From positions 124,001 to 188,000 of the forward strand of contig NZ_BLWI01000008.1 in assembly GCF_013282155.1 (NCBI RefSeq): 64,000 nt of DNA, read 5' to 3'. Every line of letters starts with the position of its first letter. Within the stretch, counting starts at the first letter, position 1. The notes below the pieces were generated by a model. It searched no databases. It had not been told where the DNA came from and saw only the letters and a program-made list of their open reading frames with translations. Below are positions 21,186 to 37,319 of the stretch, piece after piece. Position numbers and translations under genes: made by a program. Source of the DNA: Sulfitobacter sp. HGT1 (lineage in GTDB: Bacteria; Pseudomonadota; Alphaproteobacteria; Rhodobacterales; Rhodobacteraceae).

Positions 21186-21225
21186 TTTCATTTTGCCAAA
21201 TAAACTCCCGCCGGAGGCTGGCCTC
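21186..21225. repeat. Intergenic palindromic element, variant 2
   Basis: Fifteen bases after the erpA stop lies TTTCATTTTGCCAAATAAAC, followed by the palindrome TCCCGCCGGA. The first 25 or so bases recur at 31730-31757, and the AAATA plus CCCGCCGGAGGC core recurs at 34701-34719. It sits between two converging genes. Confidence 0.6.
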
Positions 21226-22300
21226 ATGCCAATGAGGCCATTTCTGCCGTTGCAGCCCGGGCAAACCCCTCAAAAAAGGCGTCAAACATCGGGCTGGAGC
21301 GTTCAGCCGCAACAATCACCTGTTGCGCGTCCCCGCCAAGATCCGAAAAAACCCGGCCCCGCATCCGCGACCAATCCGGCACCCTGTCAGAGCCGAGATC
21401 GAACAGGGTTTCAGACAAGCGGCGCAATGCCCCTTGCCCGCTCAAAGCCCCCTGAACGGCCACCTGCCCCGTCGGCACAGGGCTGGCAAATGCGCGTGAA
21501 CCGGTCATGTGCGCCAACCATCCGGTGACCAGATAACCGTGATAGGCGTCATTCGCTGCGCCCTGCCCGCCATTTACCAACCTGCAGGAATGATGGGCGT
21601 CCTGAACCAAACCCTCCCAGATCGGACTTGGCGTGAGGCCTGAAAACCGCAGCGCGGCGCAGATTTCAGCCAGCAAATCAATATCTTGATCCAGAAAAGC
21701 AAGCAGCCCGGCATATTCAAGGCTAACAGCCGCCTTGTCGCTCAACTGCGGATCAACATGCCCGTAATCGCTGAGGTAGAAAACAATATGGGCCAGTTCA
21801 TAGGCCGCTTTCTTGTTGGGCAAGGCAAAGGTGTCCGACCGGTCTATGAAACGGTGCAAGCGGTCCGGCAAATAGCCATCGCAAGGGTCGGGCCTGACGC
21901 CACGCCGCGCCAAAAGCCGCGCGGCTTCGCCCCTTTGCAGATCCGACAATTCCGCCTCTGGCGCGCCCTGCGTTGCAACCCAACTGCACAAGGCTTCGCC
22001 CTGATTGCTGCCCGCGCCCAGATCCTCAAGGTCCAGACAGATTGACAGGAAAAAGCGGTAGTACTGCGGAAAAAATTCTAGCTGTGTGCGGATCGCTTCG
22101 TAAAACGGTGCATAGGGTGCCAGAGCCTCTGCCCCGACCTGCGCCCGCATGCTGACCAGAATGCCCAGCCATTCGGCATTTTCCTTCAGCCAGAACACAT
22201 CCCCCCGCGCCCGGCGCTGGTTAGCGACCATTGAGGTCAGGCTGCCAAAACCGGCGGGATTGACGCCGTTGCGCGGCATGAAAGAAAGAACATTCGACAT
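21224..22300 (-). CDS. Uncharacterised helical protein downstream of a repeat peptide
   Basis: The 358-residue protein has no signal peptide, no clear transmembrane helix and no motif of a known enzyme. It is predicted to be mostly alpha-helical. A conspicuous segment around residue 165-180, AAYELAHIVFYLSDYG, has a His and Asp spaced as in some helical domains of unknown function. I recall, without being able to check, that Rhodobacteraceae proteins like this carry a DUF label. It follows the small repeat protein at 22360-22587 on the same strand after a 59-base gap with a hairpin. The two probably form one transcript and a functional pair. Confidence 0.7.
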   Translation of the reverse strand: MSNVLSFMPRNGVNPAGFGSLTSMVANQRRARGDVFWLKENAEWLGILVSMRAQVGAEALAPYAPFYEAIRTQLEFFPQYYRFFLSICLDLEDLGAGSNQGEALCSWVATQGAPEAELSDLQRGEAARLLARRGVRPDPCDGYLPDRLHRFIDRSDTFALPNKKAAYELAHIVFYLSDYGHVDPQLSDKAAVSLEYAGLLAFLDQDIDLLAEICAALRFSGLTPSPIWEGLVQDAHHSCRLVNGGQGAANDAYHGYLVTGWLAHMTGSRAFASPVPTGQVAVQGALSGQGALRRLSETLFDLGSDRVPDWSRMRGRVFSDLGGDAQQVIVAAERSSPMFDAFFEGFARAATAEMASLA

Positions 22301-22317
22301 AGACGGCCCCCGAAGAT

Positions 22318-22343
22318 GCCCTGCGCCACATCGGGCACAGGGC
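22318..22343 (-). promoter_or_regulatory. Intercistronic hairpin between the repeat peptide and its partner
   Basis: GCCCTG at 22318-22323 pairs with CAGGGC at 22338-22343, and an inner GCCC can extend the stem. There is no T tract. Such a hairpin may protect or partly terminate the message, so the small upstream product is made in excess. Confidence 0.45.
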
Positions 22344-22359
22344 CGTTACAAAACGAAGA

Positions 22360-22587
22360 TCAGCAGCTGGTGGTAAACAGCTCCACCAGATGTCCCGACG
22401 ACATAGCGGTCCCCGCAGGGGTGCAGCTGGTGGTAAACAGGTCGGTCCCCCCGCCTGTCGCCATATCGGTAGGTCCGGCGCTGGCCCCTGTCGTAAACAG
22501 GTCAGTTCCCCCACCCCCATGAAGCGAGGTCCGGTCCGATGGTGCGGCGGTGAAAAGTGTTTCTTCAACATAGGCAAATGCAGTCAT
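22360..22587 (-). CDS. 75-residue protein with four LFT repeats of about 20 residues
   Basis: The start has a strong ribosome site (AAGAGGACCTTAC before ATG), which supports real translation. The protein contains four spaced copies of a short motif: TLFTAAPS at residue 10, DLFTTGAS at 29, DLFTTSCT at 49 and ELFTTSC at the very end. The spacing is 19, 20 and 20 residues. GGGGTD and GGGTD precede the middle copies. The DNA shows the same 60-base period (GGTAAACAG at 22372, 22432). It has no signal peptide. Layout and size resemble a multi-core peptide precursor or a small repeat scaffold, but no function is established. Confidence 0.72.
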   Translation of the reverse strand: MTAFAYVEETLFTAAPSDRTSLHGGGGTDLFTTGASAGPTDMATGGGTDLFTTSCTPAGTAMSSGHLVELFTTSC

Positions 22588-22953
22588 GTAAGGTCCTCTT
22601 CGAAATTAGATTTTCAACCAATTGCGAGCGAATGCTCCAATTGCCCAATAATTAATCTCAAAAGTAGTTACTCGTGCGTTAACTGCCATTTTAGCGCGAA
22701 TTTCGGCGGGTTCCGTGTATCAAATCCGTTTCGGACCATCGGGAAAATTCTATTAAAAACAACGGCACACAGCGGAACGCTCGAAGCTATCTCAACCGGC
22801 ATCCTGACGTTTCCGGAATTTTTAAAATCCGCGCCCCTCCGCAATTCTGCCCCGAATCAGGGGCAATTCCAGCGCTATTTTAACGGACCGCGCTCTTGCC
22901 CCACTGCACAGGATACGCGATAGCTGGAGCCTATCTTTGCCAGGGGGCCAGCC
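22588..22953. other. AT-rich intergenic region
   Basis: The 366 bases between two divergent genes are visibly richer in A and T than either neighbour, and frames here are short with no ribosome sites. It presumably holds the promoters of the repeat-peptide gene (leftward) and xthA (rightward). I could not identify convincing -35/-10 pairs. Confidence 0.5.
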
Positions 22954-35780: not shown

Positions 35781-37319
35781 ATGACCGTACAAACACCTCA
35801 CCGCACTGGTGGCCGCGCCGCACGCCGTGCCGCACGCGCTGCCCCCCTTGCCGATCATCTGCGCCCGGTTCGGGCTGGCATGTCGGGCGGCACCTATAAT
35901 CCGCTGTCCCCCGCCGCGATGGACCGTATCCATCTGGCCGTTCTGGACGCGCTGGAACAGATCGGCCTTGCCGACGCGCCCCCTTCGGGAATTGCCTATA
36001 TGACCGGTGCCGGTGCCATTCTGGGCGACGACGGCCGGCTGCGCTTTCCCCGTGCGCTGATCGAAGACACGATCGCATCGGCCAACCGCTCTGTCACCTT
36101 GCATGGCCGTGATCCAAAGCACGATCTGGAACTGTCGGGCACCAAGGTCCATTACGGCACCGCCGGGGCCGCTGTGCATCTGGTCGAAGTGGACGGGCGC
36201 ACCTACCGCGAATGTGGCGTGCAAGACCTGCATGATGCCGCGCGCATTGCCGACCAGCTCGACAACCTGCATTTCGTGCAGCGCCCGATGGTGTGCCGCG
36301 ACATCCCCGACAACCTCGAGATGGATTTGAATTCGATCTATGCCTGCTGTGCGGGCACCACCAAACATGTGGGGGTTTCCTTTACCGAACCGTCTTTTGT
36401 GCCGCACGGGCTGGAACTCCTGCACATGATCGCGGGAGGCGAAGACAAATGGCGCGCACGGCCTTTCGTGTCGAATTCGAACTGCTTTGTCGTGCCCCCG
36501 ATGAAATTTGCCACCGAAAGCTGTCTGGTGATGGAGGCGTTGATCGACGGCGGCATGCCGATCCTGCTGCTGTCGGCCGGTCAGGCCGGTGCCACCGCCC
36601 CTGCCCCCATTGCCGGTGCGATCGTTCAGGCGGTTGCGGAATGTCTGGCAGGGCTGGTCTATGTCAACGCGATCAAGCCGGGGCATCCCGCGATCTTTGG
36701 CACATGGCCCTTTGTCAGCGACCTGCGCACCGGTGCCATGTCGGGCGGGTCCGGCGAACAGGCGCTGCTGACGGCGGGTTGTGCACAGATGCACCGTTAC
36801 TATGACCTGCCCGGCGGCGCTGCGGCGGGCATTGCCGATGCCAAGCTGCCCGATATGCAAGCGGGGTGGGAACAGGCGATGTCGAATGTGATGGCGGGCA
36901 TGTCCGGCCTGAACATGGTCTACGAGGCCGCAGGCATGCACGCCTCCTTGCTGGGGTTCTGTCTGGAATCGCTGATTTTGGGGGATGATCTGATCGGTCA
37001 GGCCCTGCGCTGCGTGCGCGGCATCGAAGTCACCGAGGACAGTGTCAGCCTTGAGGTGATCCGCGCCACCTGTATCGGCGGCCCGGGGCATTATCTGGGC
37101 TCCGACCAGACCCTGAGCCTGATGCAGACCGAATATATCTATCCCGCACTGGCCGACCGCACATCGCCCAAGGAATGGGCCGAACTGGGCAAACCCGATC
37201 TGCTGGCCAAGGCGACAGCCCGCAAGGAAGAAATCCTGGCCCAGCGTGCAAATGCGCGGTTTGATCCCGCAACCGACCGGATGATCCGCGAAAGGTTCAA
37301 TATCCACCTGCCCCAATAA
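35781..37319 (+). CDS. MttB/trimethylamine methyltransferase family protein (non-pyrrolysine)
   Basis: The 512-residue protein has the MttB TIM-barrel pattern (AGMSGGTYNPLSPAAMDRI, FTEPSFVPHGLELL, QAGATAPAPIAGA). The frame contains no internal TAG, so it lacks the pyrrolysine of archaeal MttB. Such non-Pyl members act as glycine betaine or other quaternary amine demethylases with a corrinoid protein. No corrinoid protein or reductase gene is adjacent, so the methyl acceptor must be encoded elsewhere. The substrate is inferred only at family level. Confidence 0.88.
   Translation: MTVQTPHRTGGRAARRAARAAPLADHLRPVRAGMSGGTYNPLSPAAMDRIHLAVLDALEQIGLADAPPSGIAYMTGAGAILGDDGRLRFPRALIEDTIASANRSVTLHGRDPKHDLELSGTKVHYGTAGAAVHLVEVDGRTYRECGVQDLHDAARIADQLDNLHFVQRPMVCRDIPDNLEMDLNSIYACCAGTTKHVGVSFTEPSFVPHGLELLHMIAGGEDKWRARPFVSNSNCFVVPPMKFATESCLVMEALIDGGMPILLLSAGQAGATAPAPIAGAIVQAVAECLAGLVYVNAIKPGHPAIFGTWPFVSDLRTGAMSGGSGEQALLTAGCAQMHRYYDLPGGAAAGIADAKLPDMQAGWEQAMSNVMAGMSGLNMVYEAAGMHASLLGFCLESLILGDDLIGQALRCVRGIEVTEDSVSLEVIRATCIGGPGHYLGSDQTLSLMQTEYIYPALADRTSPKEWAELGKPDLLAKATARKEEILAQRANARFDPATDRMIRERFNIHLPQ

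Follow-up and report, generated by a model that had tools for sequence, protein, structure and literature searches.

A candidate two-gene, multi-core peptide system of Rhodobacteraceae in which a DUF6902 protein would modify, and probably epimerise, repeated five-residue cores

The window analysed here, a stretch of 64,000 nucleotides from Sulfitobacter sp. HGT1, contains a pair of genes on the minus strand, a 75-codon open reading frame (ORF) and, 59 bases further on, the gene for a 358-residue protein of the Pfam family DUF6902. The ORF, its coordinates, its ribosome site and the length of the gap had been described in a first-pass annotation of this DNA and are confirmed by the sequence. 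The explanation that best fits our results is a two-gene system resembling the ribosomally synthesized and post-translationally modified peptides (RiPPs), in which the small ORF would encode a precursor with several five-residue cores and DUF6902 would modify these cores, probably by epimerisation. Judged from sequence comparison, it is very probable that the two genes form a pair and that the smaller one encodes a multi-core precursor. The assignment of DUF6902 as a peptide epimerase of the DUF6895 kind, predicted from sequence and structure model, stands at even or slightly better, and the system as a whole is considered probable.

The pairing of the two genes is conserved. We collected 135 loci, among which the window's own locus was counted twice, and reduced them to 122 with distinct DUF6902; the reduction removed identical DUF6902 stretches, so that near-identical relatives stay in. 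A repeat ORF is located directly upstream of DUF6902 in 121 of the 122 loci, of which 120 were recognised by a pattern requiring at least two motif copies and one by eye. The locus L022 is partly masked, with three motif copies legible before the mask, and L134 is the sole locus without upstream motif copies. Because the repeat pattern was written after examples had been seen, neutral tests were added. In 106 of the 122 loci, 5-mers recur in the upstream ORF more often than in any of 20 shuffles; the 16 failures are mostly short ORFs, and L022 and L134 are among them. Control segments downstream of DUF6902 (n = 1,035) mostly contain one or two copies, and 27 of them contain at least four. In addition, a check of 17 loci from the window's genus, eight of which were already in the set, provided nine loci unused in setting the pattern, and all nine carry at least two copies; L195 duplicates L050, which the set already contained. 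The adjacency first noticed in a single genome thus extends to the homologues in other genomes.

The distribution of the two genes agrees with this pairing. DUF6902 is found in 55 of 198 genomes of the family Rhodobacteraceae; within the window's genus, 18 of 24 genomes have it. A sample of 289 genomes from the class gave a single match outside the family (G589). This match is below the cut-off, and the protein passes the cut-off of DUF6895 instead. A precursor profile, constructed from 36 two-unit stretches out of 56 and run on the same 198 family genomes, matches 49 of them, all among the 55 DUF6902-positive genomes and none among the 143 DUF6902-negative ones (Fisher 3e-40). Six genomes have DUF6902 and no profile match: four with divergent repeats recognised by eye (PSWSGP, ISWSGP, MMCCS and YIAGL types), one with a truncated contig that was left unread (G139) and one without a repeat ORF (G039). 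The arrangement by which a RiPP precursor is recognised, a short leader and a core beside a consistently present partner gene, is therefore found here.

The 120 pattern-matched precursors contain 754 units (median 6, range 2–20) with a spacing that is mostly 20 or 21 residues; 92 of these precursors end exactly with their last core. Each unit is composed of the core F-x-x-x-x and, before it, a G-[D/E/G]-x-x-x-[M/L/A] stretch; the G at position -6 is fixed by the search pattern. Identity was calculated for the 100 genes that have four or more units. Within a gene, core positions +1 to +4 are 95–99% identical and the F itself 93%, compared with 53–67% at positions -5 to -1, 73 and 86% at +5 and +6 (often AP) and 28–46% in the remaining spacer. 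Between genes, positions +1 to +4 are only 36–59% identical. The identity within genes is not merely the result of recent copying, since the codons differ in 45–56% of the identical pairs at +1 to +4. The repeats are thus kept in orthologues under selection at the amino-acid level, and the core varies from species to species, in concert within each gene. Being fixed within a gene and variable between genes, the core looks like the product, which would differ between strains.

The 119 genes placed on a FastTree phylogeny of DUF6902, out of the 120, have 40 dominant cores, which require at least 58 changes on the tree; one dominant core ('GSEA') is an artefact of the pattern. Cores such as FTSGS, FTTSC, FTTSM, FCSAS, FVSWS, MMCCS and YIAGL occur, and no single core residue is essential. 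Some precursors contain two core types, for example FSSGS followed by FTTSV, and would give two products. At one locus, L127 (G099), two MMCCS cores replace F-x-x-x-x, and the adjoining DUF6902 keeps H171, D208, E212 and H254. Short half-units of the 'VQMFTSGL' type, with eight residues from F to F, follow the full units in L010, L089, L097, L098, L110 and L112; four of the five such precursors from named records belong to Shimia.

In the precursor of the window, the phenylalanines of the LFT motifs are at residues 12, 31, 51 and 71, giving spacings of 19, 20 and 20. Four LFT[AT] motifs were reached in none of 20,000 residue shuffles, and a vaguer measure based on repeated 5-mers was reached in 8 of 500. 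The first LFTA, at residue 12, is located in the leader. It is absent from both homologues of the peptide (P0001 and P0002) and, unlike the other three copies, has no G six residues earlier, so that the precursor contains three true units (FTTGA, FTTSC and FTTSC). The first-pass annotation had counted four repeats of 19–20 residues; the four motifs and their spacings hold, and the count of four repeat units is rejected. Scans of the peptide against Pfam and NCBIfam identified no family, and a protein search with it returned the two homologues only. The same scans with three precursor homologues gave only chance-like matches. One repetitive homologue just attains the cut-offs of Pfam IG_AIR9 (27.5) and NCBIfam NF038404 (35) with scores equal to them, no stretch passing alone, and scores 16 against a cut-off of 30 for the FlmA RiPP family NF052472.

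The partner had been described as a helical protein of 358 residues belonging to no recognised enzyme family. Its length and predominantly helical character are borne out, and it is not a lone protein but a member of DUF6902 (PF21843; E 1.7e-132, 442 bits against a cut-off of 27), with residues 1–349 aligned to positions 1–351 of the profile. It also passes the cut-off of DUF6895 (PF21836; 63.3 bits against 23.8) over residues 30–227 only. An independent hhalign comparison of the two families is weak (probability 38.5), and from their sequences they are best described as sister families. An alignment of four DUF6902 proteins with seven DUF6895-scoring relatives has Y167, H171, G180, D208, E212 and H254 in common; E43 and P78, considered as further common residues, were not upheld by the later alignment and are not used. 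The structure model (pLDDT 91) is mostly helical and consists of six helical hairpins, with the invariant residues concentrated on the even helices (34/84 vs 6/86 on the odd helices), and an alpha/alpha toroid is predicted. A sequence search of the PDB with the DUF6902 profile gave no match at E <= 10, and a Foldseek search with the model gave no PDB match at E <= 0.001. The fold matches of the DUF6902 model include terpene cyclases and the farnesyltransferase beta subunit, and those of a DUF6895 model include sugar 2-epimerases and the lanthipeptide synthetase CuvL.

One genus provides a natural control. The four genomes of this genus, G039 among them, all keep a diverged DUF6902, and no repeat ORF is present in the 600 bases read before its frame in any of the four; the repeat-profile search of G039, the only genome of the genus searched, gave no match. 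In all four genomes H171, E212 and H254 are replaced, and position 208 is E, L, I and E. The remaining 121 loci all keep H171, D208 and E212, and H254 is kept in all but L135, which lies at a contig end. That H171, E212 and H254 are lost where the repeat ORF is missing links these residues with the substrate being present, although a single evolutionary event probably accounts for the loss. The diverged frames of this genus (L191–L194) are still open, and a second function may be possible for them.

The pair holds a fixed chromosomal place. In 80 loci with flanks of up to 6 kb, where many of the clusters are shadow ORFs, an exonuclease gene diverges from the pair in 77 loci, an iron-sulfur (Fe-S) biosynthesis gene converges on it in 74, and genes for an HD phosphohydrolase and argS recur nearby in 72 and 65, respectively. 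Further clusters 2–6 kb away each occur in at most 58 of the 80 loci and are housekeeping-like where Pfam names them; eight additional representatives scanned with Pfam gave FAD-binding, DksA, AAA, SPOR, HNH and esterase matches, and two had none. Among the recurrent clusters there is no transporter, modification enzyme, dedicated protease or exporter, which bears out across genomes the earlier remark that no transporter or known modification enzyme is adjacent. Nor do a lasso leader protease (B) or macrolactam synthetase (C) appear among the recurrent Pfam-scanned clusters, no lasso profile having been run per locus.

Several known systems can be compared with the pair. A DUF6895 protein is named as a lasso-peptide epimerase in the title of Shi et al. 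(ACS Catal. 2026, doi 10.1021/acscatal.5c08590), cited in PMC13352647. DUF6902 resembles this family in the above-cut-off match, in the six common residues and in the toroid folds matched by both models; moreover, DUF6895-like genes also follow small ORFs (4/4 loci by eye). The two families differ in sequence (16–18% identity) and in their neighbouring peptides, which in DUF6895 carry W-[YFTA]-[VIF] motifs in one or two copies rather than F-x-x-x-x multi-core repeats, and no lasso genes recur around DUF6902. The four DUF6895-associated loci (L152, L153, L154 and L159) have their small ORFs upstream. Three of these loci have two such ORFs, and the W-[YFTA]-[VIF] motif, of which GPWFVLAG is an example, lies close to the C-terminus; by their sequences these ORFs are likely another precursor family, for DUF6895. 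G274 and G285 contain weak DUF6895 matches below the cut-off. MslH, the epimerase of the lasso peptide MS-271, is described in PMC10406935 as having a calcineurin-like fold with Ca(II). It acts on a ribosomal precursor, as DUF6902 would, and both contain His and acidic residues, but DUF6902 is predicted to be all-helical.

The multi-core precursors of cyanobactins and dikaritins combine a short leader with tandem cores, each copy having its own recognition element. The present family has the same layout and differs in having two genes only, unrelated cores and no recurrent tailoring protease, cyclase or transporter. A literature search, with most subscription journals outside its coverage, found no account of the precursor family and none of what DUF6902 does, and searches for four core strings returned no papers. 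Multi-core precursors and peptide epimerases are already known; what would be new is their combination, the two-gene economy, the fixed chromosomal place and the strain-specific cores.

In the proposed mechanism, the G-[D/E]-x-x-x-M/L/A stretch of each unit would guide DUF6902 to the adjoining core, and the toroid would bind the repeats one at a time. Using H171, D208, E212 and H254, whether or not a metal takes part, it would then invert one or more core residues at the alpha-carbon. Inversion by His and acidic residues does not depend on the nature of the side chain, in keeping with the finding that no core residue is common to all precursors. Finally, one strain-specific short peptide could be released in several copies by general proteases and exporters; general proteases are proposed because the recurrent neighbours are the exonuclease, Fe-S biosynthesis, HD phosphohydrolase and argS genes. 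That the released peptide serves as a strain-specific extracellular signal is a guess.

The first-pass annotation had offered a multi-core precursor with a partner enzyme or carrier and a secreted or scaffold repeat protein as options. The precursor with a partner enzyme is supported by the pairing, the conserved repeats and the concerted variation of the cores. It is rather unlikely that DUF6902 carries out another reaction on the same cores, as a LanC-like or other toroid cyclase or through backbone or C-terminal modification. The toroid fold spans very different chemistries, including terpene cyclases and farnesyltransferase beta, with CuvL for DUF6895, and the position of the last core at the C-terminus in most precursors would suit C-terminal modification. 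Against such reactions, the cores share no common reactive residue, as Ser, Thr, Cys and Trp are each missing in some, and the only functionally named relative found in print is an epimerase by its title.

An intact scaffold or ligand, with DUF6902 as its binding partner and the repeats as binding sites, would agree with the lack of a dedicated protease or exporter recurring beside the pair and with the lack of a signal peptide evident by eye. It is harder to reconcile with cores whose residues differ from strain to strain in every copy at once, next to an unchanged G-[DE]...MF flank, a pattern that a scaffold would not require. The loss of polar residues along with the repeat ORF points to catalysis, and we regard the scaffold explanation as improbable. 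A toxin-antitoxin or self-immunity pair spreading selfishly would be suggested by a small ORF beside a larger one and by the patchy presence in the family and genus. Such a pair is very improbable given the fixed chromosomal site beside the exonuclease and Fe-S biosynthesis genes, the lack of any toxin or antitoxin family matched in Pfam or NCBIfam and the multi-copy cores, which would have no role in it.

The features of the pair are listed in Table 1. The hairpin noted earlier in the gap is present, and such hairpins are enriched across loci: folding of the gaps of 117 of the 120 loci gave z < -2 in 35, compared with 5 of 117 control stretches taken inside DUF6902, with the window's own hairpin reaching only the value given in the table. 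In precursor-enzyme operons elsewhere, a hairpin holds the precursor mRNA in excess, and the gap hairpin may do the same here. A promoter scan at the pair gave chance-level results only, and a terminator scan found no terminator-like site on the operon strand. Elsewhere in the window, positions 36832–36930 match Rfam PYLIS_3 (pyrrolysine insertion sequence, mttB) with 45.3 bits; a non-pyrrolysine MttB homologue would be the simpler reading in a bacterium.

Table 1 Features of the gene pair, in window coordinates.
Feature	Position	Strand	Basis
DUF6902 protein, 358 aa, predicted peptide-modifying enzyme and probable epimerase; Y167, H171, G180, D208, E212, H254 common with DUF6895	21224..22300	-	profile, model, alignment
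10-bp hairpin in gap between precursor and DUF6902 genes	22318..22343	-	folding; window z -1.4
Putative multi-core precursor gene, 75 aa, leader and three repeat units	22360..22587	-	sequence, homologues, repeat statistics
Core 3, FTTSC, residues 71-75, exact C-terminus	22363..22377	-	sequence, unit comparison
Core 2, FTTSC, residues 51-55	22423..22437	-	sequence, unit comparison
Core 1, FTTGA, residues 31-35	22483..22497	-	sequence, unit comparison
Leader, residues 1-24, containing the non-conserved first LFTA	22516..22587	-	sequence; comparison with P0001, P0002
Shine-Dalgarno-like AGAGGA of precursor, ~6 nt 5' of ATG	22594..22599	-	sequence

A further possibility, which we consider doubtful, is that the pair represents a class of ribosomal D-peptides, made by two genes, that would serve across Rhodobacteraceae as a chemical code specific to the strain. 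A single toroid enzyme would invert residues in each of 2 to 20 cores whatever their side chain, the cores would evolve together inside a gene and change from strain to strain, and the free peptides could be pherotype-like signals or weapons among marine bacteria. If the two-gene system proposed here is correct, a sizeable share of this common and mostly marine family possesses a peptide system, so far undescribed, that is legible from sequence, with a strain-variable core present in several copies per precursor. Beyond the one lasso-peptide epimerase named as such in a title, DUF6895 and DUF6902 would then comprise a broad group of side-chain-tolerant, peptide-modifying toroid enzymes, and D-peptide biosynthesis and strain-specific signalling would be directly testable with two genes.
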